Below are positions 2,540-21,951 of a stretch of DNA of 64,000 nucleotides, in pieces; positions within the stretch are counted from its first letter, which is position 1, and every line of letters begins with the position of its first letter. The translations under genes were made by a program, and so were the position numbers. Source of the DNA: Akkermansiaceae bacterium (GTDB lineage Bacteria > Verrucomicrobiota > Verrucomicrobiia > Verrucomicrobiales > Akkermansiaceae); assembly GCA_015062055.1 (NCBI GenBank), contig SUVK01000006.1:1-64000 (forward strand), in the 5' to 3' direction. Under the pieces are notes generated by a model. The model saw only the letters and a program-made list of their open reading frames with translations, had not been told where the DNA came from and made no database searches.

Positions 2540-2569
2540 ACCCCTGCGCAGCATCCGCTGCCCACCCCT

Positions 2570-2654
2570 GCTACAGTGGCGGAATGGTAGACGCAGGAGA
2601 CTTAAAATCTCCCGCCCTTCAAAAGGCGTACGGGTTCGAGTCCCGTCTGTAGTA
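2570..2654 (+). tRNA. tRNA-Leu (anticodon UAA)
   Basis: An 85-nt cloverleaf with a long class II variable arm. The acceptor strands are GCTACAG and CTGTAGT (terminal G-U pair) with discriminator A. The anticodon stem GGAGA/TCTCC encloses loop CTTAAAA, giving anticodon TAA. The T-arm GGGTTCGAGTCCC is canonical. CCA is not encoded. The 3' two-thirds serves as the attachment site of the adjacent integrated element and is duplicated near 11.5 kb; this copy is the complete one. Confidence 0.95.
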
Positions 2655-2732
2655 GCTCAAATTAAGCGGCTTACGTTAAAACGTAAGCCGCTTTTGTTTT
2701 GCCTCAATTCCGTAAAAATAAGGCTAAAAACG
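2597..2732 (+). repeat. attL: left 136-bp direct repeat of the integrated element
   Basis: Starts inside the anticodon arm of tRNA-Leu, runs through the tRNA 3' end and its terminator, and stops at the AAAAACG 78 nt past the tRNA. It matches 11533-11668 at all but three positions. The three differences all lie in the terminator hairpin and keep it paired. Integration within the tRNA 3' half, which restores an intact tRNA, is typical of tyrosine integrases. Confidence 0.92.
2664..2700 (+). terminator. Rho-independent terminator of tRNA-Leu
   Basis: A perfect 13-bp stem (2664-2676 with 2681-2693) and TAAA loop is followed by CTTTTGTTTT. A diverged but still paired copy lies at 11600-11629. Confidence 0.85.
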
Positions 2733-2748
2733 CCCAAAAACGCATACA

Positions 2749-2771
2749 AAAATGCCACCAAAACGCCACCG
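2749..2771 (+). repeat. Left arm-type repeat, probable integrase-binding site
   Basis: A 23-bp sequence containing two GCCACC hexamers 10 nt apart (TGCCACC then CGCCACC) lies 16 nt inside attL. It recurs with one mismatch in the same orientation at 11476-11498, just inside attR. Paired direct repeats flanking the core are the expected arrangement for integrase arm sites. Function is inferred. Confidence 0.6.
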
Positions 2772-3120
2772 CTATTTTTACGGGGCTTTTCCAGTAATGG
2801 CGAGGGCTTGCGGGCTTCAATAGTGAAAAGTGCAAAAAATGCCCTTTTTGCTGTTTGTTGCCGGTGCAGTATCATCGGGGCAATGTCATTTTGTGCCGGG
2901 GGCTCTCGCGTGCGTACGCGCATGTATGAAAGTATTTTTTCGATTTTTCAACTACATTGCACTTTATATACTAATTATCAATTTATTAACAGTAGAAAAA
3001 CGCAATACTACAGAAAACAAGCAAGCGTTAACAAATCATTGTATATCAAGCGTATAAGCATAGTATTTTATCAAGACTACACTTTTACTACACCCTTATT
3101 TTACTATAACTCCCACAAAA
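2772..3120. other. Non-coding left end of the element, with scattered TACTACA motifs
   Basis: No convincing gene is seen. The stretch from 2930 is very AT-rich and holds copies of an ACTACA motif at 2950, 3006, 3075 and 3086, the last two 11 bp apart. The same word forms the phased repeats at 9971-10051. A shared DNA-binding protein, such as a replication or excision factor, is an inference. Confidence 0.4.
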
Positions 3121-3150
3121 TAAAACCCCTGCGACATCTGCGGCAGGGGT
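3121..3150 (-). terminator. Terminator of the element's primase-helicase operon
   Basis: On the minus strand the stem ACCCCTGC/GCAGGGGT is followed by TTTATTTT, 25 nt past the helicase stop codon. Confidence 0.7.
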
Positions 3151-3174
3151 AAATCAGGCGTGCGGGATGTAGTT

Positions 3175-4923
3175 TTACTCTTGCGCCATTAGGGCTTGCG
3201 GTATAAAAATGCAATCCTGCGGGGTCTGCATGCCCGGCATTCTTGCGCTTGCTATCCATACTCCGTCATCATTAGGTATGCCTTTTTGTCGGCATCCCTC
3301 AGCCAAAACGGGCTTTATTTTTCCGTTGCTCCATTGCGTGCCGGTGTATATACGCTTCATCATTTCGGCGCGTGGGTCTACCTGCAAGGCCTCTTTGTTA
3401 CTGTTCCATTTCAAGCCAACTATACGCAAGGCCGCTTCTACTTGCTCTTTTACATCCGGCGGCGCGTTTTCTATTAGCTCGCAGGCGGCAGCTACTGTAC
3501 GCTTGCCCGTGCCATAAATATCAACGGTATGATTCAGCAACACGGCAAGGCATCGCGAAAAATCGCTTTCTTGTTCGTCCTGCTCATCGTATACCCTCAT
3601 TATGCGGGCGGCGTTTTCCATCTCTTCCGAGGTCATCAGGTCGCAGCTTGTCAGGGCGTGCCGGCCAGCCGTCAGGATAGAAAAAATCTCTGCCTTTCGG
3701 GCATCAGCTCCCGCATTCATCAGGGCTGCGGCAAGTGTCTTTTGATTCTCCATTATCACCGGCAGCAAGGCCAGCAAGCGGGCTATCAAGCGGGCGTGAA
3801 AGTCTTTCCCTTGCACCAGCTCGCGCCCGGCTTTCTGTCGCTCCCATAGCGGGGATAATACCGCAGGGCTTCGGCGTTCCAGTCTCAAGCCAACAATACG
3901 GGAAGCATCAGCATCGCGGCTTATATCATCGGATATTGAGAAAAGCGCAAAATTGCATTTCATCAAGAAAAATGTCCCCGTGCCATCCTGTGTGCCTTTG
4001 CTTATTTTCCCCTCATAGGCGGCATTTCTCATCAATTCCAGCAAGGCAGCGATATTTTTTTGATTCTTCTTACTCTCGCCCGGCTCCACTTCATCCAACA
4101 ACACCGGCAGGCAATCGCTTTTGCGTCTTTGGCGTGTCGCGGCCTCTGTAGGTATGCCCTCCATAGTCAAGGCATAGGCTCCAAGGATTGCGGCAAGGTC
4201 GTTTTTTAAGTACGTTTTGCCGGTACCGGCAGGGGCGTTAATCCATACATGCGGGCGCATAGGCGTACACCCTGCCAGCAAGGCGGCCGCCGTCCATCCT
4301 GCCAACATGTCACCGGCTCCCGCCATCGTCCACGGGCGGGCGGTCAGTAACTCGACAAGTTGCTTGCCCTCTGCATCCGTCAAGGGATTTTCTGCCGGGG
4401 CGGGTAATGCCTCCCCAATAGCGTATATATGCCGTTCTCGCACGTTTTCCACCCGTTCGGGGCGGCTACCATCGGCAGGAACATGCCAGCACGCACGGCC
4501 GGCATTATACAGCCATCTTCCATCACCATCAGGCCACACGCCACGCGCACGCACGGCTTCGGGGGAAAAAATTTTATACCGAGATTCTTCTATCAATCTT
4601 TCTTGCGCCTCAGCTACAAGCTCCCTTTTACCCGGCGCGGCTCCCGCCTCTGTCTCTTTCGGGAATAAATAACGCTCCCAATGCTCACGCGCGGCCATGT
4701 CTAGCAGGTTTGGCCAGTTTATTTTTTCAGCGGTCAAGCGGTATATATCGCGGCTTGCGGTAGAATAGAATACATGGCTTTTGCCCTCCCTCCCGAGGCA
4801 TATCACCGGGGGGCGGTTGCGTTCTTCTTCTTCGCGCTTCGCTTGTTCATTATCGGCTTGTAATGCCGCCATCTCTTGCTTGTACCTCTTGCGGGCGGGG
4901 TCTCCGTTCTTTTCTGTTTTCAT
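3175..4923 (-). CDS. Replicative helicase-like P-loop ATPase of the integrated element
   Basis: A 582-residue protein with a Walker A motif APAGTGKTYL near residue 234 and a Walker B-like LPVLLDEVE about 45 residues later. This order and the phage/plasmid context fit the primase-associated helicases of the DUF927/D5 type. The N-terminal 60 residues are charged and coiled-coil-like. The C-terminal 150 residues look like a winged-helix DNA-binding tail but this is not certain. It begins 4 nt after the primase stop, so the two proteins are co-translated and probably act together at the element's origin. Helicase activity is inferred; ATPase is well supported. Confidence 0.72.
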   Translation of the reverse strand: MKTEKNGDPARKRYKQEMAALQADNEQAKREEEERNRPPVICLGREGKSHVFYSTASRDIYRLTAEKINWPNLLDMAAREHWERYLFPKETEAGAAPGKRELVAEAQERLIEESRYKIFSPEAVRARGVWPDGDGRWLYNAGRACWHVPADGSRPERVENVRERHIYAIGEALPAPAENPLTDAEGKQLVELLTARPWTMAGAGDMLAGWTAAALLAGCTPMRPHVWINAPAGTGKTYLKNDLAAILGAYALTMEGIPTEAATRQRRKSDCLPVLLDEVEPGESKKNQKNIAALLELMRNAAYEGKISKGTQDGTGTFFLMKCNFALFSISDDISRDADASRIVGLRLERRSPAVLSPLWERQKAGRELVQGKDFHARLIARLLALLPVIMENQKTLAAALMNAGADARKAEIFSILTAGRHALTSCDLMTSEEMENAARIMRVYDEQDEQESDFSRCLAVLLNHTVDIYGTGKRTVAAACELIENAPPDVKEQVEAALRIVGLKWNSNKEALQVDPRAEMMKRIYTGTQWSNGKIKPVLAEGCRQKGIPNDDGVWIASARMPGMQTPQDCIFIPQALMAQE

Positions 4924-4927
4924 TCTG

Positions 4928-6073
4928 TCAAATGTCGGTCATTCTCGCTATAATGTCTCTCATCAGTAGCCACGGGCGGGCGGGGTCAAGGGCGGCTCTT
5001 GCGTCCTTTTTACCCTCTGCCGGTGTCCACTTCTTTACCATGCGCACGCCTGCTTTTTTCAGGGCTTCGGCGGTTGCCTCTGCTCCCTTTTGCCCGGCTT
5101 CATCACCATCTGCCAGCAACACTACAGACTTGCCCCATAAAGCATGCGCCCAAGACTCGCGGAATGTGCCTGCATCAGGTTTAGCCACTACGGCGGGCAA
5201 TGCGTTTTCGGGGTAAGTTTCAGGTTCATCAGTAAGCCATCTTTCAAACTCTGATTCTACCGCTGCACGCACGGCCAACGCGTCAGATTCTCCCTCTGTC
5301 ACTATCACCATACTTGCATATTCTGTGGCATCAATGCCCCATAGTGCAGACTTGCGGCCACGCATCAGGAAACGGGGATTTACCCCTTGCGGGTTGCGGG
5401 TCTTTACACCCAGCACACGCACCGGCTCGCCATCAGCGGGGCAGCTCGTGTACACATATAGCAATCTCTCGCGCTCATCCACCCCCAGCAAGCCACGGCA
5501 AGCGCATTCCTGTATGTCTGTATGGCTCTGAATTATCCACGGGGGAAGATTCAACATCACCGCAAAGCGGGCTTGCAAATCAGGGCGGGCAGCCAAGCGG
5601 CGCACCGCATCCAGGGCGGCGGCTTCTTCTTCGGTCTCTAAAAGCTCTAGTGGCTTTTCTGCGGGCGTTTGCTCGGCGAGCGGTGCAGATATACCCCGGC
5701 GGGCAGAAAACGCGCCCTTGCGCCTCCTGTGGCTCTTTTTCGGGGCGTTTTCGGTGCCGGTGTCTGTCAGCGTATAGCCAACGGCATCCGCTACGGTCTG
5801 CACGCATCGGGCAAAATCCTTGCGGGGGTCTATCCCCTCCACGGCGGCGGCTATATCGTACACCGTGCCACCACGGTTGCAAGCTCTGCACATGGCCACG
5901 CCGCATCCGTCCTTTTCGGTCGTTTCCAGCTTCGGGCGCGTGTGGCTCCCATAGGGGCAGGGATAAAACGTCAAGCGGCCTATATTCTTACCTGCGCCAA
6001 GGGCAGCGCGACAATAGTCTTGCAACACATCAGGCGCACGCAAGGCGGATATATCAGCGGGGCAAATTTTCAT
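4928..6073 (-). CDS. DnaG-like primase with CHC2 zinc finger and Toprim domain
   Basis: The 381-residue protein starts with a CHC2-type zinc finger (YPCPYGSHTRPK and CRACNRGGTVYDIA, residues about 38-75), followed by a basic linker. A Toprim domain follows, with the glutamate motif VIVTEGESDALAVRAA and the metal motif LLADGDEAGQKGA near residue 323. These are the residues needed for primer synthesis. It overlaps the upstream ERCC4 nuclease by 20 nt and precedes the helicase by 4 nt. Together they form an autonomous replication module, as in P4-type satellites and some plasmids. Confidence 0.82.
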   Translation of the reverse strand: MKICPADISALRAPDVLQDYCRAALGAGKNIGRLTFYPCPYGSHTRPKLETTEKDGCGVAMCRACNRGGTVYDIAAAVEGIDPRKDFARCVQTVADAVGYTLTDTGTENAPKKSHRRRKGAFSARRGISAPLAEQTPAEKPLELLETEEEAAALDAVRRLAARPDLQARFAVMLNLPPWIIQSHTDIQECACRGLLGVDERERLLYVYTSCPADGEPVRVLGVKTRNPQGVNPRFLMRGRKSALWGIDATEYASMVIVTEGESDALAVRAAVESEFERWLTDEPETYPENALPAVVAKPDAGTFRESWAHALWGKSVVLLADGDEAGQKGAEATAEALKKAGVRMVKKWTPAEGKKDARAALDPARPWLLMRDIIARMTDI

Positions 6074-6623
6074 CCTGTATAGCCTCCTTTCTGTAAGTGT
6101 CTACCCCTGCAAAATCCTTGCGACTCACTCGCGCACGCAGCGCACCCGCTACCCACGGGGGAAAAGGCAACATCACCCCGGCGGGCTTCATGGCTTCACG
6201 ATAGGCGCAGAATGCCCATGATTCTACCAGTAATGCAGCATCTTCGGGCGTGTCCACCCATACCACATGCACGCCATAGCGGGCTTGTATGGCCATCAAG
6301 GAATGTTCAATCTGCGTTATGTTAGCTCTCCCCTGTGCTACCAATGCGGCAAGCTCTATGTCTCGCCCTATAATCAGCAAGTAGGCATTAGTAAAGCCTC
6401 TCAGCCGGTGCATTTCTCGCATGAATCGGGCGCGTTCTCGCGTCAGACTCCCGGCAAGGTCTGCCACCGTCTTACGCTCTACGCAAAATGATTCTTCAAT
6501 ACCCTTTGCGCTGTAGTCTCCACTTTGCAACGCGCCACGCTCGCTATCACAATGACGGAATATAAGCGGGGTCTGCTCGCGCGTGTCAATTATCAGCCGG
6601 GGTAACTGTGCCTTGTCTCTCAT
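6054..6623 (-). CDS. ERCC4-type (XPF-like) nuclease
   Basis: The 189-residue protein is almost entirely an ERCC4 nuclease domain. The active-site pattern is visible as LIIDTREQTP, then GDYSAKG, then the signature VERKTVADLAGSL (ERKxxxD). It lacks the helix-hairpin-helix and helicase parts of eukaryotic XPF, as is usual for phage and mobile-element members. Family proteins cut branched or flap DNA. Here it is co-transcribed with the primase and helicase, so a role in processing replication or recombination intermediates is likely. An attack on competing DNA is possible but unsupported. The start overlaps the HTH gene stop by 4 nt (ATGA). Confidence 0.8.
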   Translation of the reverse strand: MRDKAQLPRLIIDTREQTPLIFRHCDSERGALQSGDYSAKGIEESFCVERKTVADLAGSLTRERARFMREMHRLRGFTNAYLLIIGRDIELAALVAQGRANITQIEHSLMAIQARYGVHVVWVDTPEDAALLVESWAFCAYREAMKPAGVMLPFPPWVAGALRARVSRKDFAGVDTYRKEAIQDENLPR

Positions 6624-6871
6624 GATTCAGCAAGCGCGTTTTTCTTTTCCAGCCATGCCATGCAATCTTGATATTTGTAACGGGGATTGCTACCTCTGCC
6701 GCCTTGCTTCTTGCCCAAGTATATAACCGGCATTCCCTGCCGTGTGTAATTCTGTATCGTCCCCTTGCTCACATGTAACAAGCTTGCAATCTCCTCTTGC
6801 GTCAAGGGTAGATTCTTTTCTGCCGCATCTTGCAACACCTGTTTTCTCTCCGTTGTAGCTCTCTTACTCAT
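6620..6871 (-). CDS. Small HTH DNA-binding protein, candidate excisionase or regulator
   Basis: An 83-residue protein whose middle section TQEEIASLLHVSKGTIQNYT is a clear helix-turn-helix, followed by a wing-like basic segment (YLGKKQGGRGSNPRYKYQ) and WLEKK. The layout resembles the MerR-like HTH of excisionases, AlpA proteins and small terminase subunits. It is the first gene after a strong promoter and heads the nuclease-primase-helicase operon, so it probably controls excision or replication. Which of these roles it has cannot be read from sequence. Confidence 0.7.
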   Translation of the reverse strand: MSKRATTERKQVLQDAAEKNLPLTQEEIASLLHVSKGTIQNYTRQGMPVIYLGKKQGGRGSNPRYKYQDCMAWLEKKNALAES

Positions 6872-6929
6872 TTTTTTTGCTTTTTTGTTGTAACTGTTTT
6901 TCCTCTTTTTGTGTGAGGTTGCCTGTTTT

Positions 6930-6958
6930 TTTATAGTCTCTTTTTCTCATGCTGTCAA
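6930..6958 (-). promoter_or_regulatory. Strong sigma-70 promoter of the element's replication operon
   Basis: On the minus strand a perfect TTGACA (6953-6958) is followed after 17 nt by TATAAA (6930-6935). The expected start near 6923 leaves a leader of about 50 nt before the HTH gene. Confidence 0.78.
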
Positions 6959-7031
6959 CCGTCTTGCAGTCAATCGTTAGTGTATAATTCGGATAAAACG
7001 GACTATGCGGAAATAAAGCAAAAAAGCAACG

Positions 7032-7060
7032 TACAAAAGCGGGCTTTTTGTCCGCTTTTG
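7032..7060 (-). terminator. Hairpin terminator after the small-regulator operon
   Basis: Perfect 10-bp arms (7032-7041 and 7051-7060, core AAAAGCGG/CCGCTTTT) lie 24 nt past the stop at 7084. The minus-strand arm ends in a T run. It separates the upstream operon from the replication-operon promoter. Confidence 0.6.
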
Positions 7061-7083
7061 TTTTAGCCTGTTTTTTGTCATAC

Positions 7084-7461
7084 TCAACACCGCAGCAATT
7101 CAGTTTCGGCAAAATGGATTAATTCAAGTTCTATCTGTCGCTTCATGGCTATCATCTGACGCAGGCGGTTGCGGTTGCCTGTGTCTCCCTCATCATAACG
7201 GCGGGCGGGGCTGTAGGGCATGGCTCGCGGCTGTATCGGCGCATTTGTCACCGGCAGCAAGGTCAGATTGTCCTCTTTCCAAGGCATCGGCGGGGCGGGG
7301 TTGCCTGTTTTTCTTGCTTTTTCCCATGCTATAAGATAACTCACAAATGCGGAAAAATCCGGTGCCCCGACTTTGCTCATAGCTATAATTATTGCTTCAT
7401 ATTCTTCTGCGTTGCATTTAACCTCAAGCCAAACTCTATCATTCGGAAGATGCTTTATCAT
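7084..7461 (-). CDS. Hypothetical protein of the integrated element
   Basis: A 125-residue soluble protein with no recognised family. The N-terminal 55 residues (WLEVKCNAEEYEAIIIAMSK and so on) look folded and helical. A Pro-rich linker and a C-terminal helix (RLRQMIAMKRQIELELIHF) with coiled-coil character follow. It starts 25 nt after the small gene at 7487-7669, is transcribed with it, and is followed by a hairpin terminator. Sitting between the regulatory region and replication genes suggests an accessory replication or regulatory protein, but this is context only. Confidence 0.6.
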   Translation of the reverse strand: MIKHLPNDRVWLEVKCNAEEYEAIIIAMSKVGAPDFSAFVSYLIAWEKARKTGNPAPPMPWKEDNLTLLPVTNAPIQPRAMPYSPARRYDEGDTGNRNRLRQMIAMKRQIELELIHFAETELLRC

Positions 7462-7486
7462 CTCTTTAGTCTCCGGGGGTAAGGGG

Positions 7487-7669
7487 TTAAGCCATCAGGG
7501 CGGCGGGGCGGTTCTTCACTTCGGCTATCATGGCGCGTTTGAGCATCTCCGGCGCGGTCATACCAAGGCGGGCGGCGGCAAGGTTCAATGCGTCTATTTG
7601 TTCGCGGGTCAGATTCACCATGCAGGGGCGCACGGTGCCGGCGGTCTGTGTGTCTGTTTGTGTAGTCAT
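7487..7669 (-). CDS. Small ribbon-helix-helix-like protein, putative repressor
   Basis: A 60-residue protein. The core VNLTREQIDALNLAAARLGMTAPEMLKRAMIAEV matches the strand-helix-turn-helix layout of CopG/Arc-type DNA-binding proteins, with a short disordered N-terminus rich in Thr and Gln. It has its own consensus promoter in a region shared with oppositely transcribed regulators, the typical place for a repressor of a mobile-element switch. The fold assignment is from pattern only. Confidence 0.6.
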   Translation of the reverse strand: MTTQTDTQTAGTVRPCMVNLTREQIDALNLAAARLGMTAPEMLKRAMIAEVKNRPAALMA

Positions 7670-7676
7670 AATCTAA

Positions 7677-7785
7677 AAGCGGCTAAATTATCCGCATGGC
7701 TTGTTTATAAGATAATCTTAACCGCTTGTAAAGCCAAAAGCGGATAAAATGTCACTTTTCTGCTTTACACGGCAAAAAAAAGCGG
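7677..7785. promoter_or_regulatory. Divergent control region with repeated AAGCGG sites
   Basis: AAGCGG or its complement occurs at 7677-7682, 7722-7727, 7738-7743 and 7780-7785. The first pairs with a CCGC at 7692 and the middle two form an inverted repeat. The sites overlap or touch both divergent promoters, as expected for operators. The same word also occurs in nearby terminator stems, so it may not be a specific operator. Confidence 0.45.
7704..7732 (-). promoter_or_regulatory. Promoter of the small RHH-like gene
   Basis: Minus-strand TTTACA (7727-7732) and TATAAA (7704-7709) are spaced 17 nt apart, 35 nt before the ATG at 7669. Confidence 0.65.
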
Positions 7786-7792
7786 GTAGAAT
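7764..7792 (+). promoter_or_regulatory. Promoter giving a leaderless transcript for the first tandem regulator
   Basis: TTTACA (7764-7769) and TAGAAT (7787-7792) have a 17-nt spacer. Only 7 nt separate the -10 box from the GTG at 7800, so transcription should begin at the start codon itself. Confidence 0.7.
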
Positions 7793-7799
7793 GCGCCCC

Positions 7800-8162
7800 G
7801 TGAATAATGAAGCTATAAAGGCGTCAATCAAGGCTCGCGGCTACACGCTCAAAGCTTTTGCCGAGGTTCTAGGGGTTGCATATGGCACATTGCGGCGCGC
7901 TCTCGCGGGCAATCAACCGTTAACCGAGCAATTACGCCGCCATATCCTGCTTGCCTTGCAATCTGATACACCTGCACCCGAGGGACAGGCCGTGCCGGTT
8001 GATATTCCTTTATCTCTGCCGGGGGAAATATGGCAGGCTATCGACAAGGCCGCATCTGCTCAGGGCATCAGCTCCGAGCGATACACCTCCGAGCTTGTAC
8101 AACGGCTCGCCAAGGATATAACGGCGGGGCTTATACTCTCGCGCCACCGCTCCGGCAAATAA
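7800..8162 (+). CDS. HTH regulator, tandem paralogue 1
   Basis: About 120 residues. The N-terminal half contains a Cro/cI-like helix-turn-helix (YTLKAFAEVLGVAYGTLRRAL). The C-terminal half (LPGEIWQAIDKAASAQGISSERYTSELVQRLAKD) resembles a ribbon-helix-helix, so it may have two DNA-binding modules. The next gene is a diverged copy with the same two-part layout. I chose the GTG at 7800 over the ATG at 7791 because it aligns with the paralogue's start and because a -10 box overlaps the ATG. Probably a lysogeny-type regulator of the element. Confidence 0.7.
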   Translation: MNNEAIKASIKARGYTLKAFAEVLGVAYGTLRRALAGNQPLTEQLRRHILLALQSDTPAPEGQAVPVDIPLSLPGEIWQAIDKAASAQGISSERYTSELVQRLAKDITAGLILSRHRSGK

Positions 8163-8185
8163 GGTTACAATTTGCTTGCACCCGC

Positions 8186-8551
8186 ATGACAGAAAAGCAA
8201 ATAAAGGCGGCAATCCATGCCAAGGGCTACACGCTCAAGGCCTTTGCCGAGATTCTAGGGGTTGCATACGAGACTTTGCGCAAGGGGTTATCAGGTGCCA
8301 AGCCGTTAACCGAGCAACTTCGCCGCCATATCCTGCTTGCCTTGCAAACTACCCCGGCAAATGGAGATGTTAGAACAAGTTACCCACTTGGCGCAGAATC
8401 GGGGTTTTCTTTGCCTCCCCGTATATGGCACGCTCTGGATGCAGAAGCTACCGCGCAAGGAATCACCACCGCAGAATATACGCGCTATCTTGTAATGACT
8501 ATTGCAAATCAGATTGTAGACGATATAATCACGCATCGTCCCCTTGAATAA
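8186..8551 (+). CDS. HTH regulator, tandem paralogue 2
   Basis: About 121 residues, clearly paralogous to the preceding gene: IKAAIHAKGYTLKAFAEILG versus its IKASIKARGYTLKAFAEVLG, and PLTEQLRRHILLALQ in both. The C-terminal helices (PPRIWHALDAEATAQGITTAEY) also correspond. The gene lies 23 nt after paralogue 1. A TACAAT box at 8166-8171 could give it its own very short leader. The copies have diverged more in the linker than in the HTH, suggesting kept DNA-binding roles with different partners or sites. Confidence 0.7.
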   Translation: MTEKQIKAAIHAKGYTLKAFAEILGVAYETLRKGLSGAKPLTEQLRRHILLALQTTPANGDVRTSYPLGAESGFSLPPRIWHALDAEATAQGITTAEYTRYLVMTIANQIVDDIITHRPLE

Positions 8552-8572
8552 AACTTTCATTCCGTCATCTCA

Positions 8573-8613
8573 GCCGCTCCCAGTTTCCTCTGTTCTCCGG
8601 TGGCGGTTTTTCT
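8573..8613 (+). terminator. Possible terminator after the tandem regulators
   Basis: A stem of about 7 of 8 pairs (CCGCTCCC near 8575 with GGTGGCGG ending 8606) precedes TTTTTCTATT. The loop is long, so confidence is moderate. Confidence 0.4.
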
Positions 8614-8905
8614 ATTCATCGGGAATGCAGGTAGAATCAGAAAAAAGAATGCGGCAGCAGGTTTGCCCTCCTACTGCCGCTTATTATGAAAATATATTCT
8701 GTACCCTTTCGGGACAGCCCTATTTTACAAGATTTTCCCCTTGCGTCAAGTGTTTTTTTCATTGCTACCCCAAAAAGGGCGGGGAAAAGGGGCAAACTCT
8801 CCCCCGCCCTGTACTGCCTTTAGTGGCAGATTACAATCAGAAGCTCAAGGCATCTGATTACTACCTCCACATGAGGCAGCGGGATACAGAATATGTACTT
8901 CATAA

Positions 8906-8925
8906 TAAAAAGCCGCTTTCGCGGC
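8906..8925 (-). terminator. Minus-strand terminator with GAAA tetraloop
   Basis: On the minus strand the stem GCCGC/GCGGC encloses a GAAA loop and is followed by TTTTTATTATG. It would end transcripts coming from the gene at 9262-9705 or from an unannotated small RNA. Confidence 0.6.
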
Positions 8926-9133
8926 GCGGGGGATTCTATAACAGGCCCTCTATAAAGTCAAGGATTCTTTCCCCTGCTCCCGGGGGCATCAACAGCGGGA
9001 ATATATCATATAGTAGTTTACTACTTCGCATAACGGCGGTAATGCCAAATTCTCGCAATTAGTTAAAAAGTCACAACTTGCCTATTATAAAGGCTTTATG
9101 AAATTATTTACAAATTACAAATCTAATTATTGC

Positions 9134-9149
9134 GCGTTATGAATAACGC
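9134..9149. promoter_or_regulatory. Short palindrome, possible protein-binding site
   Basis: GCGTTAT and ATAACGC form perfect 7-bp arms with a 2-nt centre in an AT-rich surround. No adjacent gene start explains it. Confidence 0.35.
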
Positions 9150-9261
9150 TAAAAATCAAATTTAACTAATTTATCATTTAATATCAATACGTTACGTTAA
9201 TTAGTTTCTTTTCTATCGGCTTTTATAAGCATCTTTCGTCTTTGTTAAGTTTTTATAATTA

Positions 9262-9705
9262 TTATTCTATTCTTGCCCTGTCTTTTCTCCAATTTATAAG
9301 AAACGGCATGCCGGCATTGCCACCATAAAAAGGAGATTGTTCTTCCTCTTCTCTATCACTCCCGAGGTCATCCGACAAGTCAGACAACGGGAAAAGACTT
9401 GCAAGCGCGGGCGCATTTATATCTTCACTGTATATCTGCCATCCGCAAAAATGAAGTAAAGATATAAACTCAGCGGCGCGAATCAATGCAACTTTGTAAA
9501 TGTCTGTTTTCAATCCAACTTCTACCCTTTTTGATTTTCGCACCTTATCGGGCGCGCACACCACACGCAGATTATACATATAAGGCGCATGCTTTCTCAA
9601 ATAACGCCCTAATGCCTGCACCTCTTCGGGCATCATATCTACCGGGAATAGCTCTGTCATGACTTTATTTTTCACCACGCGCGACAGCTTGTCAAGTTCG
9701 TTCAT
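9262..9705 (-). CDS. Hypothetical protein of the integrated element
   Basis: A 147-residue soluble protein with no recognised family. The first 70 residues are basic (VVKNKV, RKHAPY, DKVRKSKRVEVGLK), the middle is hydrophobic and helical (VALIRAAEFISLLHFCGWQIY), and a very acidic stretch (DLSDDLGSDREEEEQ) comes near the C-terminus. The order basic, hydrophobic, acidic could fit a small DNA-mimic or replication accessory protein, but nothing in it is diagnostic. It stands alone between two non-coding regions, downstream of the iteron region. A weak GATAAT lies upstream. Confidence 0.55.
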   Translation of the reverse strand: MNELDKLSRVVKNKVMTELFPVDMMPEEVQALGRYLRKHAPYMYNLRVVCAPDKVRKSKRVEVGLKTDIYKVALIRAAEFISLLHFCGWQIYSEDINAPALASLFPLSDLSDDLGSDREEEEQSPFYGGNAGMPFLINWRKDRARIE

Positions 9706-9970
9706 AAATCAAGCAAAAAGAATAGACACACCTCACTTATTATCATGCACTTCCGTATCTGTCGCTCACGCGCGCGTATTGGTTGCCAAAACAAATGCGC
9801 CAGAATGCCCCTAAAGCGCACTTTTGCTTGTTTCCGCTATCGAGTACCACGACAGTACAAAAAGTCACGCCAGCGGCAAATCAGGGCGTAAAATCGGCAA
9901 ATCTGCCGTCATAGCATCAGGAATGAAGAATGAAGGCAGGGCGGCAAGCTATCGCCTGCGCTTTGATTCT
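9706..9970. other. Intergenic stretch before the iterons
   Basis: No supported gene. A plus-strand frame at 9824-10102 runs through the iterons and has no family features, so I left it out. A GC-alternating tract (CACGCGCGCG) lies near 9770. Confidence 0.4.
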
Positions 9971-10093
9971 TACTACAAAAACGGCATTTTTTACTACAAA
10001 ACAGGTGCTTCTAACTACAAAACCGCAGCTTTCTACTACACTATTACTACGCTTAACATATTTATTATTATATTATTATATTATATTGTAGTA
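9971..10093. repeat. Iteron array with AT-rich region: candidate replication origin of the element
   Basis: TACTACA (one copy AACTACA) begins at 9971, 9992, 10013 and 10034, an exact 21-bp period of two helical turns. A half-period copy starts at 10045. An almost pure A/T stretch follows, then an inverted copy (TGTAGTA) at 10087-10093. Phased direct repeats beside an AT-rich stretch are the hallmark of iteron-type origins, and the element carries its own primase and helicase. An alternative is an operator or integrase accessory site for the adjacent int gene. Confidence 0.65.
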
Positions 10094-10168
10094 GAAAAAT
10101 AGTGTATAAAATAGTCACATGTGCGCACGCGCTCGCGCGTACATTTTACCAAGATTCTCCCCTGCCGG

Positions 10169-11416
10169 TTAATCCTCCGGGGGCATAATAGAAAAGAATG
10201 CAAAAGCTTCATCTTTGGTCACGGCGTGCCTGTAATGCTTTTGAAGCGTCTTTATATCGTTTCCCAGCTCTTCGGCAGCGTCTGCCATACCATCAAGCGC
10301 ACAAATCATCGTTGCGGCTGTATGCCTCAAGGCATCGCGGGGAATCGTTACCCCTGCCCCGGTTGCCACTCTCTTAAGGTGGCGCGTGTAGTTCTCGCTC
10401 CGTTTCTTTTCTGTCTCTCCCGGCAGAATAAAATCATCAGGCGCACCATGCAAGCCGCTTTTAGCGGTATAATTCAGCCAAGCGGCCAGATTAGGGCGAA
10501 TCTTTGCTATACGGTCAACGTTCGTTTTTGTAATGGCGCGGGATAAATACGCCTCTGCACGGCCACCGGGGAAAAGGTCTTTATACTTCATGCGGCCAAG
10601 CTCTGCCGGGCGTACACCACAAAACAAGGCCAGCAACAAGGCAGGCAAATATGGCTGGCATGCCGTATAGCTGCAAGCAAACGCAAGGATTTTTTGTGTA
10701 TCCTCTGTCGTTATTGTCTCCGGCTCTGTCTCGCTCTTTACTTGAGGCTTGTCCATGGCATCAAGCGGATTCTTCTTCACAATGTCACGCTTTACCCCAT
10801 AAGAAAAAAGCTCCGATAAACATACCATATAATCTTGCACCGTGCGGGGGGCGGGCTTGCCACCGGCTCGCCCTGTTAATGTATCAAGAAAAGTCTGTAC
10901 CCGCTCCGGGGTAATGTTTCCAGCTCTATCATCAGCAAAATATTCAGAAAAACGGCGCACCTTACCGGCAATCTTTCTTAAATGCTCTTTGTCCAGATTC
11001 TCGTTCTCCTTGCTACGCAAATATTCGTTTGCCATCGCCGGGAATAGCGGTGTTATGGATTGAGGGCGCACTTGCTCAAGGGCAATCTGCATAACCTCCG
11101 AGCAGGGCAAATAGCGGCACGCCTCCTTTTGGCACGCTTTCACATAGTCACGCCATAAATCAAGCGCGCGTTTCTCATCGTCAGATATAGCTCCGAACTT
11201 TTGCCCATAGTCGTTGAGTTCTTTCTTTCTGCTTGCTATCAGCTCTTTTGCTGCTTTTACTCCGTCCTCTGTATCGGGAAATGTTTTTCTTTTTCTTTCC
11301 CCGTTTTCTGTCCACTGTGCCAGAATCACATATTTTTTGCGCTTCTTTTCGCGGGTAACGCCTGTTGGCAATTTATCCCACTTTAACCCGGCAATCTTTT
11401 TTCTTTTTTCTCCCAT
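10169..11416 (-). CDS. int: Tyrosine recombinase (integrase)
   Basis: A 415-residue site-specific recombinase. The C-terminal catalytic domain shows the first Arg in LALFCGVRPAELGRMKYKDL, the H-x-x-R box DALRHTAATM, and HYRHAV with the nucleophilic Tyr near the C-terminus. The N-terminal part has a basic AP2-like arm-binding region and a SAM-like core-binding domain. I start at the ATG at 11416 (MGEKRKKIAGLKWDKL) because the upstream 23 codons are hydrophobic and unlike integrases. It reads inward from attR, the usual position, and probably catalyses integration at tRNA-Leu(UAA). Confidence 0.92.
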   Translation of the reverse strand: MGEKRKKIAGLKWDKLPTGVTREKKRKKYVILAQWTENGERKRKTFPDTEDGVKAAKELIASRKKELNDYGQKFGAISDDEKRALDLWRDYVKACQKEACRYLPCSEVMQIALEQVRPQSITPLFPAMANEYLRSKENENLDKEHLRKIAGKVRRFSEYFADDRAGNITPERVQTFLDTLTGRAGGKPAPRTVQDYMVCLSELFSYGVKRDIVKKNPLDAMDKPQVKSETEPETITTEDTQKILAFACSYTACQPYLPALLLALFCGVRPAELGRMKYKDLFPGGRAEAYLSRAITKTNVDRIAKIRPNLAAWLNYTAKSGLHGAPDDFILPGETEKKRSENYTRHLKRVATGAGVTIPRDALRHTAATMICALDGMADAAEELGNDIKTLQKHYRHAVTKDEAFAFFSIMPPED

Positions 11417-11475
11417 GCTTCCCGTATAATACCCATATAAAAACAAGAAACAAGCACAAAAATACATATGCCCAC

Positions 11476-11498
11476 AAAATGCCACCGAAACGCCACCG
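11476..11498 (+). repeat. Right arm-type repeat, probable integrase-binding site
   Basis: Matches 22 of 23 bases of the left copy at 2749-2771, in the same orientation, 34 nt inside attR and upstream of int. The double GCCACC pattern could be recognised by the integrase N-terminal domain. Confidence 0.6.
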
Positions 11499-11532
11499 AT
11501 ATTTGCCGATATTGATATATCAATCTTTGCAA

Positions 11533-11668
11533 GAGACTTAAAATCTCCCGCCCTTCAAAAGGCGTACGGGTTCGAGTCCCGTCTGTAGTAGCTCAAATTA
11601 AGCGGTTTACGTTAAAATGTAAACCGCTTTTGTTTTGCCTCAATTCCGTAAAAATAAGGCTAAAAACG
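11533..11668 (+). repeat. attR: right 136-bp direct repeat
   Basis: Copy of the tRNA-Leu 3' portion, terminator and downstream 32 nt. The tRNA 5' part is missing, so this is not a functional tRNA. It marks the right boundary of the element, 46 nt before the pglZ stop. The preserved hairpin may also terminate BREX transcripts running leftward. Confidence 0.92.
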
Positions 11669-11714: not shown

Positions 11715-14303
11715 TCAATCAAAGAAGTTAAAATCATCAATAGCCATAGCTATATCTATCCGGAATGCTTCACGCTGCTGCAACTGAGTGCCGCTCTCAT
11801 CCTCAATGACGAGGTAGTAGGTATCCCGGTTGTTGTATTTCATACTCTTGAGGCTGAAATTATGGCGATGTACGCGTTCCTGCGCGCTGGTGTTCTCCTT
11901 ATCCGCTATCAGCTTCACGGTGTCGCTGATCTGCTTGCCGTACTCATTCGTAAAATATAGCTTATAGGGGCAAGCAATGCGGTTATCGCCCACAGCTTCG
12001 TTTTGCAGGAAACTCAGCGGGAACAACATGTTCGTTATCTTTCTGCCGGCAGAGAGCAAAGAAATCGTCACAGGCTTAGTATCATACTTTTCCCTGTTCT
12101 TCTTGTACTGTGCGCTGGCATTGCGCAGATATCGGAACTCAATCACCGGCACCACCATCTCTTGCAAACTGATGCCACCATGCACAAAGTTGAGCCCGCC
12201 GCCGCTCATCTTAATGCGCACATTCTCGCGCGGGGTCAGCGCCGCCAACTCGTCCGTAAACTTCACCGGCATCAGGTAACCGGCCTCGGCACCGGGCTCG
12301 GTGATAGCATAGCGGCGTCCATATTCCACCAGCTGCTCGCGGAATGCACTCTTATCCACCTTGTCCAGCTCGCTCAGCGGGCTGTAGGTGTACAGGAAAC
12401 CATGGTCTGCCGTGATACAGATGCGCGTGCCGCCGAACTCATTGCAGATGAGGCGCACCAGATGCTTCAGCTCGTTGATGGCATCCTCACAAGCAGAGAA
12501 TACCTGCGCATCCGAGCTGTGGCCGGCTTCGTCAATCTTATCGTGGTAAATGTACACCACTTCCATGTCTTTCACCAAGGCCTGGCGGGCGGCACGTTTC
12601 AGCCCTATGATATTCTTGTATTGCAAGGCCACACTGGCGGGGTGCTTCGCTTTCAGCACCTTATCACGGTTAGGCATTTCGGTACTTGCGCCGTCCGCCA
12701 GCACACTCACGCCGCCGCCGTCTTTCGCCACCACATCCAGCTTGAGGTGCGGCAGTAGTGCCGCCATGCCGAACTTGGTGATTGTCGGGAAAATCCCCTG
12801 CATGCTTTCCAGCTCTACCGTGCATTGGTTTTCACGGCGCAGTTGTTCTGTCAATTCTGCTGCTACCTCGTAGCGCAGCGCGTCAGAGACAATCACGTAG
12901 AGCTTCCTGTCTCTCGACTCTACTTTGTTACAATAAAAACTCCGCTGGCGATTCACATTGGGTATATAGCCCTGCGTGGCTAATGCCTCGGCGCTCACCG
13001 CTGTCCAGTTGCTACCCAGTTGATTCAGGTACTTGCCATACAGGCTTTCCACCACATCCTGCACATGCTTGAAGAGGTCATCCAGCCCCCCCCGACTCAT
13101 GGTCAGACTGCGGTTGAAACACAGGTGAAAGCGGCGGTAGTAACTATCCATGCGGTAATAGTCACTTTCGTAGGCCCGCCATATTTCCTGTGGTTTGGCA
13201 AGGTGGAATCCCTCGTGGTGCGTGGTGTTAAACTCCTGCATGTTGGCCACCTGCAACAATCCTTCGTAGTAGGGGGCATATCGGTTGTACCATACCTTTG
13301 TACGACGGGTGCCCACCAGGTTGCGGATACTTTCCACGCGGATAAGTCCATCGCATATTTCCTGCATCAGCGTAGCGAGTATACACTCGTCTATGCAGGG
13401 GAAACATTCCGTCTCTGCCAGTTCCTCGGCCTCCGCCTTACTGAAGCGCCGGTAGAGCCGCAGGTCATACTCCACCTCCCCGGCAAGGTCGCCCAAGCCC
13501 TCCGACTGCGTCTGCAACCAGTCGGCAACCAAATCATAGCAGGGTGACTGATAGGCATCGTTGATGTATGCGTCCAGTCCGGTGAGCAGTTGCTCCCGCA
13601 TGGTGCGTGTAGCAGCAGTCATCAGCAAGTGCGCCGCCAGCTTTTTCAGCTCGGGCTCAGCCCCGCCGTTGTATCCGCACATCTGCTGCGCCAGTTTCCA
13701 GAATGCGGTTTCGGCACCATATTTCTTCAGCTTGCCGTATACCGAGTTGTTCTCGGCATCCGTTCCGCGCGACAATACGCCCAAGATAATGCCCGATGGT
13801 TGCGGAGCTCGTATGCCACACAGGGTGGCCATGACAGCCAAGTGCAGCTGCGGCACGGTGGCAATATGGGCGGACATCGCTTTAATGCGGGCACGATGCT
13901 CTGCCACTTGGAAAAACTTACTGTACTCCTTGATTTTCGGACGTATGAGTTCATTCCGGGTCAAGCCCATTTCATCCATCCACATGGAGTTGCGGTCTGC
14001 CCGGTATTCCTCGCTGTACAGGGCAATGTTCAGCAGCCAGTTGTCTTCTGCCCTCCGGAACCGCAGCGGGCAATAGACCAGGTAATTACTCTCCGTGTCG
14101 TCTGCGGCTAACTGCTTCTTAGCTGCAAAGCTATTAGTGCCGGTCAGGACAAGCAGCTTGGCATTTGCCAATTCCATCTCCGCCACTCTGTCCTCAAACT
14201 CGCGTTCTTCATCGTACCAAAAGATGATACGTCGCTTGTAGAACTCTGCCAAGGGTTCAGCAAAGCGGCGGTTCAATTCGCGTGTGATGTTCTCCCAATC
14301 CAT
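11715..14303 (-). CDS. pglZ: BREX protein PglZ (alkaline phosphatase superfamily)
   Basis: PglZ is a core BREX component with a phosphatase/phosphodiesterase-like fold. The 862-residue length is normal. The C-terminal half has the metal-site motifs of the superfamily: VIVSDALRYEVAAELTEQL near residue 475, IYHDKIDEAGHSSDAQVF, and TADHGFLYTY. The segment FPTITKFGMAALLPHLKL is also typical of PglZ. It starts 12 nt after pglX and is the last gene of the operon. In type 1 BREX brxL would follow, but here attR does. The C-terminus is intact. Confidence 0.92.
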   Translation of the reverse strand: MDWENITRELNRRFAEPLAEFYKRRIIFWYDEEREFEDRVAEMELANAKLLVLTGTNSFAAKKQLAADDTESNYLVYCPLRFRRAEDNWLLNIALYSEEYRADRNSMWMDEMGLTRNELIRPKIKEYSKFFQVAEHRARIKAMSAHIATVPQLHLAVMATLCGIRAPQPSGIILGVLSRGTDAENNSVYGKLKKYGAETAFWKLAQQMCGYNGGAEPELKKLAAHLLMTAATRTMREQLLTGLDAYINDAYQSPCYDLVADWLQTQSEGLGDLAGEVEYDLRLYRRFSKAEAEELAETECFPCIDECILATLMQEICDGLIRVESIRNLVGTRRTKVWYNRYAPYYEGLLQVANMQEFNTTHHEGFHLAKPQEIWRAYESDYYRMDSYYRRFHLCFNRSLTMSRGGLDDLFKHVQDVVESLYGKYLNQLGSNWTAVSAEALATQGYIPNVNRQRSFYCNKVESRDRKLYVIVSDALRYEVAAELTEQLRRENQCTVELESMQGIFPTITKFGMAALLPHLKLDVVAKDGGGVSVLADGASTEMPNRDKVLKAKHPASVALQYKNIIGLKRAARQALVKDMEVVYIYHDKIDEAGHSSDAQVFSACEDAINELKHLVRLICNEFGGTRICITADHGFLYTYSPLSELDKVDKSAFREQLVEYGRRYAITEPGAEAGYLMPVKFTDELAALTPRENVRIKMSGGGLNFVHGGISLQEMVVPVIEFRYLRNASAQYKKNREKYDTKPVTISLLSAGRKITNMLFPLSFLQNEAVGDNRIACPYKLYFTNEYGKQISDTVKLIADKENTSAQERVHRHNFSLKSMKYNNRDTYYLVIEDESGTQLQQREAFRIDIAMAIDDFNFFD

Positions 14304-14315
14304 GCTCTCTTGTCC

Positions 14316-17300
14316 TTATTTGATTTTGGTCAGCACGTCACTGAAGAGGGCGTAGTTCTTCTTCACGCCATCATCCAGGTCGATGCTGATGTATTGGTCT
14401 GCTAAGTGGTGTATTTTTTCTTCGTACTCGTGCAGTTCCTTGTCCTGCTCCTGGAGCTTTTTCTGCACCTTGCTCAGCTTCACGCGCTCGCCGGTGTCGG
14501 CGTTCGCCATGCGCTGCTCGATGCCTTCCAAGGCGGTGCGGTAGCGGTCCTGCTGCTGGTGCACGTAGTCGGTGCGGATGCGGGCGATGGTATCCGGTGC
14601 GTAGCGGTGCATGTAGACCAGGGCGCGGAAGCCGCCCTTCTTCCCGCTGTCAAACTGCCAGTAGATGGGCCGCTTCTGGTAGATTTTCAGATGGTCGGCA
14701 TAGAAGTCATCGCGGAAGTATTTGCGGATGACTTCGCGCGCGCTGCCCTTGCCACCCAGCGCATCCGCGATGTAGCGCAGGTTCTCCTCCAGCGATTCCT
14801 CCCCGTAGGCCACGCGGACAAACTCCACGAAGCGCCCCACGATGTCGTCCTCAAAGTATTCATCATCACAGATGGGGATGATGTTGTCCGCATCCGCCGG
14901 AAAACTGCTGTACTTGCTTGCATCCCAATTACCGCCGGCATAAGCCAGCCCTTCCTCATCCAAGGAATAGCGCCCGAACATGCAGCCCACTGCATAGCTG
15001 ATGAGGCTACGGATATCCCGACCCAAATCAGCCTTACGTACCGTCACGTCCTTTTCCTCCACCTCCGGCGTCAGCTCATCCTGTAAACCGTAGATGTCGA
15101 TGAAAATGCGGTTGAGCTCTTCCTCGTTCGCTTTGAGTTGGTAGAAGCGCTCGGAGGCCTCGCGTTCCCATGCCTCGTATGATGCTTGCACACTCCCAAG
15201 ACCACGAAGTAAGGGGTGACGTTTGAAGTCCCATGAGATCTCGAAGGAGTCCCAGTCCTTGCGAGCCCTCCCTATACACTGGTCTGCTAATTCGAGAACC
15301 AAATGAGAATTCTTTTCTATAATCAGAGGTAGATTAGCTACTTCTAGTATATTATAGTGCAAAGAAGATGATAGTCTCAATAAATAATCAACAACTTTTG
15401 AATTAGCCCACCCCAACAATACATGCAAGGAATCGTCTGAAAAAATACTTGGACCAGTAACATCAAAACAAAATCCTATATTTTTTAAGCGGAATGCTAT
15501 AGAGCAGGAAGCAACCTGCGACCACGTTATGCAAGGCCTAAAAAAATAATTTAGGTTTTGTGGCCGAGAGGCTAATTTTCCGGTCTCGTTTTTGAAGTTA
15601 CATATTTCATACCCATCGTATTCCCAATTTAAAATATAGTCATTATTTCCATACCATTTTTTAAAACTTCCACCCTTGTTGTATGGAAACCATTTTTTTC
15701 TCGATAATTTCGCATCTTCTCGGCAACTACAGTGAAAGGAGATATTGCCTAGCGACACCTCATGCCACAGTCTCGTAAATCTTTGAATATCACCTGTTGC
15801 TATCCCTTGGCGAATATCTGCATACTCGGATAATCTTATATGATTCCCATATAGGTTAAAAATAGCTTCCGATGCAGAATAGTTATATATTCCACCAAAC
15901 TTATCAAAGTCAGACACACTCCGAATATACTCGCCCACATGGGAGAAATATAAGCTCCTTTTCTCTGATGAATTCTTCCCATCTCTTAAATCGCGGAAAG
16001 AAGTTTTGTATCGCTTATCCTTTTTTGCAGTATAAACAAAAGCAGCAACCTGTACTACTTCGCCAGAGATATCATCGAATGCACGCGTCCCTAGATGCAA
16101 CATGTTTATACATGTTGACTTGCTCGATAATAATAACCTAAACTTTTCAAAAGAAGATTGATACATCCATGCTTGCATTGTAATATTTGAAGCAATTCCT
16201 AGCGATGTTAAATACGAAAAACTCCGTTCTACAAAAGCAGTGTATAAATCGTTTTTAGATGATGTAAACTTATCTGAAATAAAAAAAGATAGCTTTTTAT
16301 CAGCGTTTCCTGCCCCCATATACGGCGGGTTGGTCACCACAGCATCGTACTTCAACGCCAAGGTTTCAGCCACACGAATCAGCGGGAGGATTTCATTAAC
16401 AATGGCTGCTCCTTGCATATCCCCGTTTTTACGAATCGCCTCAGCGCGAGTATACAGTGCTCCATAATCCAGCGGAGTGCATTTGATGAGCGAGCCGTAT
16501 TCCTTAGCATCGTGAAGCTCACGGACTATGGTTTGCAGGGAGAAATACATCCCGGCATCACCATTAGCAAAGTATTCTAAAGCCTGTTCATCAATGCTAT
16601 TGCTTTCGCAAATAGCGTAGACCTTGGGCTGAGGTACATCCGGCTTGTCTTCTTCATCCTTGCGAGTCAGGAAACGGCGGTCATACTGCCTAGCTTTCAT
16701 CATCACGGCAAAGTAAGCGAGCTGAGCCGCGCGGTCATCGATATCCAGACCATAGATATTCTTCTCTATGATGCTGCGCACGGCATCTCGCGTGGTATAG
16801 CCGCAGGCTTCATAAATCTGCACCAGCACATCAAACATGTAGGCGAGAATGTGTCCGCTGCCGCAGCAAGGGTCGATACACTTGATATCCTCCGGCTTCA
16901 TGGCGGCGTACTCCTTGCGGATGTCTGCCAGCTGAGCCTGAACCTCCGGCTCCTGTTCCGCTTCCTCCAGAAAGTAGCGCCACTGCTGCTTCAGTTCTTC
17001 ATTAGGATGCCCTTCTACCCAAAGGCGACCGAGGGAGTTTTCCACCATGTAGCGCACAATCCAATCCGGCGTAAAGAGCTGGGTGGCAGCGGGAATGTTA
17101 TCTTTGGTGATTTTAACATTCTTCTTCAGGTTTGCGAATACTTCGTCTTTCTTCTCGCTGTTGTAGTATTGGTACAGCCAGCCGATAATCTGCACGGCAT
17201 CCTGCCAATCCTCGGTGGGGATGGAGGTCACCATCTCATGAATCACGCTACCCTCACGCAGCAGATTATCCGGGAAGAGCAGCTCCGTGTAGTCCGCAAT

Positions 17301-17792
17301 GTGCTGGAACATTTGCGGTAGAACAGGGCTGAGGGCATTGCACCGGGTGATGAGCAGGTACTTGAACAGCCCCTCCTTGTCATTCGCCTCCTTGTAGGCA
17401 TAGACCGCATCCATAGAAAGCCCCTCCAGCTCCAGGGACAGGGCTTCATCAATCATCTGCGGCTTGAAGGCATCCTCCTCATTGGTGAAAACACGCACAC
17501 GGGAGGGGAGATATTGGTTCACCTCCATGAAGCGCAGCGCACAGAAACGGTTGAACCAGGTGTAGGCCACTTCCTCCATGACCTGCTCATAGCCTTTGCT
17601 CTGCACCTGCTTCAACAGGGCGCGGCGCTGCCGGATTTCCTCAGCCGAAAGCACCTTGCCATTGATACTCGTGGCCTCTTCCGGTTCGGCGGTGTTAGCC
17701 GCAATACCGTACTGCAAGGCCTTCTGTAAAACGCGGGCAATCAGCTCCCGACGAGCCCAGACCGCAAACTTTTTGATGGCGTTTTTATCCAT
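14316..17792 (-). CDS. pglX: BREX adenine-specific DNA methyltransferase PglX
   Basis: PglX methylates an adenine in the host's BREX site to mark self DNA and sets the system's specificity. The 1158-residue protein has the SAM-binding motif CIDPCCGSGHILAYMF near residue 307 and the catalytic NPPYMG near residue 489. The following segment, residues about 494-834, is encoded by DNA much richer in A and T than the rest of the gene. It coincides with the expected target-recognition part. The C-terminal 320 residues are conserved-looking and end in a coiled-coil (EQRMANADTGERVKLSKVQ). Gaps of 12 nt to brxC and pglZ show tight co-transcription. Confidence 0.94.
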   Translation of the reverse strand: MDKNAIKKFAVWARRELIARVLQKALQYGIAANTAEPEEATSINGKVLSAEEIRQRRALLKQVQSKGYEQVMEEVAYTWFNRFCALRFMEVNQYLPSRVRVFTNEEDAFKPQMIDEALSLELEGLSMDAVYAYKEANDKEGLFKYLLITRCNALSPVLPQMFQHIADYTELLFPDNLLREGSVIHEMVTSIPTEDWQDAVQIIGWLYQYYNSEKKDEVFANLKKNVKITKDNIPAATQLFTPDWIVRYMVENSLGRLWVEGHPNEELKQQWRYFLEEAEQEPEVQAQLADIRKEYAAMKPEDIKCIDPCCGSGHILAYMFDVLVQIYEACGYTTRDAVRSIIEKNIYGLDIDDRAAQLAYFAVMMKARQYDRRFLTRKDEEDKPDVPQPKVYAICESNSIDEQALEYFANGDAGMYFSLQTIVRELHDAKEYGSLIKCTPLDYGALYTRAEAIRKNGDMQGAAIVNEILPLIRVAETLALKYDAVVTNPPYMGAGNADKKLSFFISDKFTSSKNDLYTAFVERSFSYLTSLGIASNITMQAWMYQSSFEKFRLLLSSKSTCINMLHLGTRAFDDISGEVVQVAAFVYTAKKDKRYKTSFRDLRDGKNSSEKRSLYFSHVGEYIRSVSDFDKFGGIYNYSASEAIFNLYGNHIRLSEYADIRQGIATGDIQRFTRLWHEVSLGNISFHCSCREDAKLSRKKWFPYNKGGSFKKWYGNNDYILNWEYDGYEICNFKNETGKLASRPQNLNYFFRPCITWSQVASCSIAFRLKNIGFCFDVTGPSIFSDDSLHVLLGWANSKVVDYLLRLSSSLHYNILEVANLPLIIEKNSHLVLELADQCIGRARKDWDSFEISWDFKRHPLLRGLGSVQASYEAWEREASERFYQLKANEEELNRIFIDIYGLQDELTPEVEEKDVTVRKADLGRDIRSLISYAVGCMFGRYSLDEEGLAYAGGNWDASKYSSFPADADNIIPICDDEYFEDDIVGRFVEFVRVAYGEESLEENLRYIADALGGKGSAREVIRKYFRDDFYADHLKIYQKRPIYWQFDSGKKGGFRALVYMHRYAPDTIARIRTDYVHQQQDRYRTALEGIEQRMANADTGERVKLSKVQKKLQEQDKELHEYEEKIHHLADQYISIDLDDGVKKNYALFSDVLTKIK

Positions 17793-17804
17793 GATAACAG
17801 GGTA

Positions 17805-21374: not shown

Positions 21375-21381
21375 AGGTGTA

Positions 21382-21939: not shown

Positions 21940-21951
21940 GTTGCCAATGAG

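Follow-up and report, generated by a model that had tools for sequence, protein, structure and literature searches.

An intact element in the tRNA-Leu(UAA) gene of an Akkermansia bacterium is a probable member of a PICI-like family of phage satellites

In the current analysis an intact element of 9.07 kb (2597-11668) has been identified inside the tRNA-Leu(UAA) gene of an Akkermansia genome, in a window of 64,000 nucleotides that belongs to contig C15 of the draft genome G000. We consider it to be a member of a PICI-like family of phage satellites of Akkermansia, with a probability of roughly 0.7 as judged from sequence comparisons. The satellite reading was at first a guess from missing genes, and is now strengthened by sister elements that encode TerS without TerL, the core of which is near-identical to the TerS core of a prophage in the same genome. 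In Proteobacteria and Firmicutes phage satellites are familiar. No paper on satellites of Akkermansia was found in the searched literature, and as far as that literature shows a PICI-like satellite family is apparently undescribed in Verrucomicrobiota. Roughly one Akkermansia species genome in six has a member of the family; some members have defence cargo and some a TerS matched to prophages of the genus, and satellite transduction is thereby open to direct testing in a probiotic gut bacterium. The replication module, with its conserved iterons and ERCC4 nuclease, is new.

The tRNA-Leu(UAA) gene that serves as the integration site (2569..2656, plus strand; ARAGORN and Rfam RF00005) is intact, its 3' part being derived from the element. 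The attL repeat (2597..2732, plus strand) comprises 136 bp covering the tRNA from its anticodon stem to the 3' end, together with a terminator hairpin, and attR (11533..11668, plus strand) is the displaced original tRNA 3' part with its terminator. These direct repeats, already described in the first-pass annotation, differ at three positions (2670, 2682 and 2687) and are spaced by 8,936 bp, which is the size of the predicted excised circle. For a 23-nt piece of the repeat the expected number of chance matches is zero, and no third copy occurs within the 64-kb window. Two of the mismatches form a compensatory pair in the terminator stem (C-G to T-A) and the remaining one is a G-T wobble; therefore the terminator hairpins of both copies fold alike. 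As the tRNA 3' part and the terminator are present in either copy, the element brings its own tRNA end and terminator. The paired arm repeats noted earlier have also been recovered: AAAATGCCACCNAAACGCCACCGNTATTT, with two GCCACC units 11 bp apart, is found in the window only at 2749..2777 (first arm, plus strand) and 11476..11504 (second arm, plus strand), where it is assigned as the arm-type site of Int.

Among the closest species, the tRNA-Leu loci of G051 and G002 were inspected and neither gave a clean empty site. The contig of G051 stops within or just beyond the repeat region. G002, the closest species (L110, G002:C8, 1640-1900), has the same tRNA-Leu followed by the left arm of the element; the arm gives way within a few hundred bp to another gene, and the locus represents either a scar or another element.

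The minus strand of the element encodes the helicase, primase, ERCC4 nuclease, a small HTH protein and two small proteins, followed by a 147-aa protein and the integrase, and the plus strand encodes two paralogous HTH regulators divergent from the replication operon. The replicative helicase (3175..4923, minus strand) has a Walker A motif NAPAGTGKT and a Walker B motif VLLDE and matches PHROG 35358 (1.3e-65), a family annotated as 'DNA primase'; no solved structure was matched. It shares 24-30% sequence identity with primase/helicase proteins of phages, among them the CHC2/Toprim primase and helicase modules of tailed phages of Bordetella, Pseudomonas and Aeromonas, from which the module of the window differs in being a compact operon with no virion genes. 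The primase (4928..6073, minus strand) is comprised of a zinc finger and a Toprim domain (Pfam 9e-5, PHROG 1e-11, and alignments). The ERCC4/XPF-type nuclease (6054..6623, minus strand; PF02732, 1.9e-15) retains the active-site residues GDY...VERKTVAD, aligns with the XPF structure 2bgw (1.9e-4) and is 32% identical over 120 aa to proteins of haloarchaeal tailed viruses. The first gene of the operon (6620..6871, minus strand) encodes a small AlpA/Xis/Nu1-like HTH protein that is conserved in sister elements. The HTH-nuclease-primase-helicase operon proposed from the open reading frames is thus borne out by these family matches. Weak TerS matches of the small HTH protein suggested a Nu1-type TerS, an assignment that was rejected as the protein also occurs in elements with a real TerS.

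Upstream of the operon lie a 125-aa protein without a Pfam or PHROG family match (7084..7461, minus strand) and a 60-aa regulator-like protein (7487..7669, minus strand) conserved in two sister elements, L025 and L029. The HTH regulators a (7749..8162, plus strand; start probably at 7791) and b (8186..8551, plus strand) are 52% identical to each other. An AT-rich non-coding stretch (9023..9195) is about 70% conserved in L029. The tyrosine integrase (10169..11485, minus strand; start probably at 11416) holds up on the family searches (Pfam 4e-10, PHROG 3e-29), with the residues R, R and Y present, and is 55% identical to the integrase of L029. Another Akkermansia locus, L022 (G000:C40:88-3141), has two tandem integrases about 34% identical to that of the window with a small HTH gene between them, and similar pairs are found in G049, G064 and G066.

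Among the ten main proteins of the element no capsid, portal, tail, TerL, other virion, lysis, relaxase or conjugation families were recognised with Pfam and PHROGs, in agreement with the first-pass annotation. An integrative mobilisable element, dependent on a conjugative element for its movement, would resemble the element of the window in its integrase, excision, small size, tRNA site and helper-dependent transfer; HTH b resembles NikA very weakly (Pfam, E 0.04), and relaxase matches are present in 5/76 Akkermansia genomes. This explanation is nevertheless very improbable, given that the element has no relaxase, that no PF03432 relaxase occurs anywhere in the draft genome G000, and that its relatives carry TerS, for which we know of no use in conjugation.

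The putative replication origin (9964..10102) includes TTACTACAAA iterons at a 21-bp pitch, an AT-rich unwinding region and an inverted iteron. The array, which had been proposed as an iteron origin from the window alone, is real and is conserved in L029, where the iterons, the pitch, the AT-rich stretch and the inverted iteron are almost identical. The other proteins shared by the two elements are only 34-59% identical, which suggests strong selection on the origin DNA. Of the 164 loci examined, this iteron pattern is carried by the window element and L029 only. A different set of iterons is found beside an AT-rich stretch in L016, at the equivalent place after int. In the window element the origin is placed after int rather than after rep.

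A non-coding region (8634-8985) has been identified that holds two transcription units in tandem, both having a sigma-70-like promoter and a terminator of their own. Candidate small RNA B (8634..8721, minus strand) has an upstream promoter and a covarying terminator hairpin, and candidate small RNA A of about 160 nt (8768..8927, minus strand) has the promoter TTGAC-TATAGAAT and a terminator. Their stems covary across six sequences from six Akkermansia loci, and the covariance model finds only six strong sites among the 76 genomes, of which one is beside a fragment of HTH a, one downstream of tRNA-Leu and two in element remnants at tRNA-Pro/Phe. No Rfam family matches these RNAs.

Full-length homologues of the primase, counted with a primase profile at E 1.6e-42 or better, are encoded at 14 places in 13 of the 76 Akkermansia species genomes. 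The loci examined share a core of Int, HTH, primase and helicase, with or without ERCC4, and lie mostly in tRNA genes: tRNA-Cys (L016, 6.4 kb), tRNA-Tyr (L017), tRNA-Ser (L018 and L019), tRNA-Val (L157, 7.5 kb) and tRNA-Met (L158, 10.4 kb, with a restriction-modification pair). The same core recurs elsewhere in the genus; a look at other Verrucomicrobiota genomes had been put forward as a check. The same integration site also recurs. L025, from a goat MAG, adjoins the same tRNA-Leu(UAA) in the same orientation and has in common with the window element the HTH pair, the 60-aa protein, ERCC4, primase and helicase. Defence cargo of sister elements includes an Eco57I-type methylase with a BsuBI/PstI-type endonuclease, a restriction-modification system (L030, 12984-15415), and a GmrSD/HNH restriction-enzyme-like protein (L028, 6780-8030).

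Protein searches of viral databases had been proposed as a check. In IMG/VR the primase and helicase have distant relatives only, and the integrase and the 147-aa protein have none. Near-identical DNA to the element is not present in phage records. The claim that the element is unlike the familiar satellites stands in so far as its replication genes match no Pfam or PHROG family tied to a named satellite, and fails for the ERCC4 nuclease, which is not unique and is found in at least four sister lineages.

L029 is a contig of 13.7 kb with an exact 141-bp overlap of its ends, an assembly overlap that marks a circle of 13,561 bp. The circle includes one attP homologous to the tRNA-Leu repeat and flanked by two arm repeats, in the arrangement seen in the window with a different motif, and has no recognised virion genes and no match in plasmid records. 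This Akkermansia-type contig is filed in a MAG labelled Clostridia, which is probably a binning error. A second comparison involves L017 (G016) and L094 (G046), elements that are 100% identical with left flanks only 97-98% identical; this indicates that the element has recently passed between genomes classed as different species. The circular form and the element identical in two species support, at the level of sequence, the mobility of the family.

The examined sister loci were also without recognised virion genes. A decayed prophage that lost its structural genes, a reading to which the phage homologues of the helicase, primase and ERCC4 protein lend something, is disfavoured and highly unlikely on these observations: the core frames are all intact, nothing is missing from the att sites or the arms, one compact set of genes without virion genes recurs at different tRNA genes, and the circular L029 equally has none.

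Positive evidence for a satellite comes from the packaging genes of sister elements. An Sf6-type TerS (PF20901) follows int in L017/L094, L026 and L029 (match of 2e-9 in L029) with no TerL, and no TerS was found in the sister elements L016, L018 and L019. In G046 the TerS of the satellite (L094) and that of the resident prophage (L098), which also carries TerL and a Mu-type portal, are identical at 45/46 residues of the C-terminal core and at 37/81 (46%) of the DNA-binding part, where identity falls to 25% at its lowest. The satellite TerS likewise shares 44/46 residues of the core and 38/88 of the DNA-binding part with the Akkermansia phage DTMo-2021a (A. muciniphila), the TerL of which is 96% identical to the prophage TerL. 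Such a mosaic, with a helper-like core and a divergent DNA-binding part, is the pattern expected of packaging hijackers as far as sequence can tell, and DTMo-2021a with its prophage relatives is a candidate helper for the sister element. A. muciniphila has inducible prophages (PMC8008629), and candidate helpers are therefore present in the genus.

The window copy has no PF20901 TerS, and none is encoded anywhere in G000. TerS redirects packaging in PICIs, where only some members carry it and others use cis sites (PMC6092414). G000 holds a lambda-type prophage segment with a GpA TerL; it shares no DNA with the element, and similarity thus points to no common packaging site. The search for a cis site by DNA shared with the host prophage or with phage records gave none, a search that a cis site without long similarity would escape. 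An integrative replicon or plasmid, which excises and replicates with no dedicated packaging and spreads by rare passive events (generalised transduction or uptake of free DNA), would fit a window copy without a recognisable TerS and with its own origin and replication genes, as well as the plasmid-like circle in which L029 was assembled. We regard it as unlikely, since sister elements with the same core carry a TerS with a helper-matched core and no partition gene was recognised in the element proteins with Pfam and PHROGs.

For the preferred PICI-like satellite, packaging of the window copy may be surmised from its family, and the candidate factor is the 147-aa protein (9262..9705, minus strand) that occupies the terS slot relative to L029, L017 and L026. 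It matches no family, and the structure predicted for it is of low quality (pLDDT 51.5), inadequate for a fold search. Homologues are found in two element remnants only; between these and the window copy the N-terminus has diverged and the C-terminus (ALASLFPLSDLSDDLGSDRE...FYGGNAGMPF) hardly varies, the latter resembling in its sequence a partner-binding tail. The remnants, L152 (G002:C83) and L153 (G051:C88), are decayed copies of a related element at tRNA-Pro/Phe. Both retain the small RNA cassette, some of the HTH pair and the 147-aa gene, which in L152 is incomplete; an integrase fragment is left in L153 only. A bolder proposal, of a separate Verrucomicrobiota satellite family with its own ERCC4-primase-helicase replicon, in which the 147-aa protein replaces TerS and the tandem small RNA cassette contributes to the control of the satellite or its helper, is offered tentatively and is rather doubtful.

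L029 also encodes a 783-aa coiled-coil protein (11851-13701, continuing into 3-641) like the start of a tape-measure protein, and L017 a protein of 695 aa, unrelated to it, that weakly matches a head-morphogenesis family (PHROG 1660, 7e-5). Both are possible tail or capsid factors of satellites.

A life cycle can be suggested for the element. Int would insert it at the anticodon stem-loop of tRNA-Leu(UAA), where the element's own copy makes good the tRNA 3' part and terminator, and the HTH a/b pair probably silences the operon on the opposite strand. On entry or induction of a helper phage, Int would excise the circle, which the HTH-ERCC4-primase-helicase module is expected to replicate from the iteron origin, and the DNA would then be packed into helper particles. 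Sister elements probably supply their own TerS, of which the domain on the TerL side copies that of the helper and the DNA-binding domain would read the satellite; in the window copy the redirection of packaging is presumed to fall to the terS-slot protein of 147 aa or to a cis packaging site. The anatomy, the conserved origin, the circular sister form, the TerS mosaic and the element identical in two species are seen in the DNA. The steps of repression, helper induction, packaging and transduction, as well as the part played by the 147-aa protein, are inferred. The earlier view that the element can integrate, excise and replicate and does not transfer itself is in keeping with its tRNA integration, excision equipment, own replication module and absence of transfer genes.

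The similarity to PICIs, including SaPIs, extends to Int at one end, a defined attachment site, the absence of virion or lytic genes, a primase-type replication module with an iteron origin, TerS without TerL in sister elements, and variable defence cargo in some Akkermansia members. The regulators (HTH a/b, plus strand) diverge from the xis/replication operon (minus strand) as in PICIs, a likeness of layout alone. The Akkermansia elements are of 6-14 kb, roughly a third of the length of a 32-kb Akkermansia phage. They differ from PICIs in belonging to another phylum and in the HTH-ERCC4-primase-helicase module with its ERCC4 nuclease, and the window copy differs further in being without TerS. 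P4-like satellites share tRNA integration and an own primase/helicase, whereas the element has no match to Psu, Sid or Delta (Pfam, PHROGs), its replication proteins are different and its sister elements carry TerS.

Adjacent to the element the minus strand of the window (11715-22581) encodes the BREX genes brxA, brxB, brxC, pglX and pglZ. The end of pglZ is 47 bp from attR with no brxL after it, so the att site seems to be where the BREX operon ends. On the other side of the element, a 23-bp inverted repeat (96%) is found in non-coding DNA at 1718-1740 and 1974-1996, with its copies 233 bp apart, and is possibly a miniature mobile or REP-like element.
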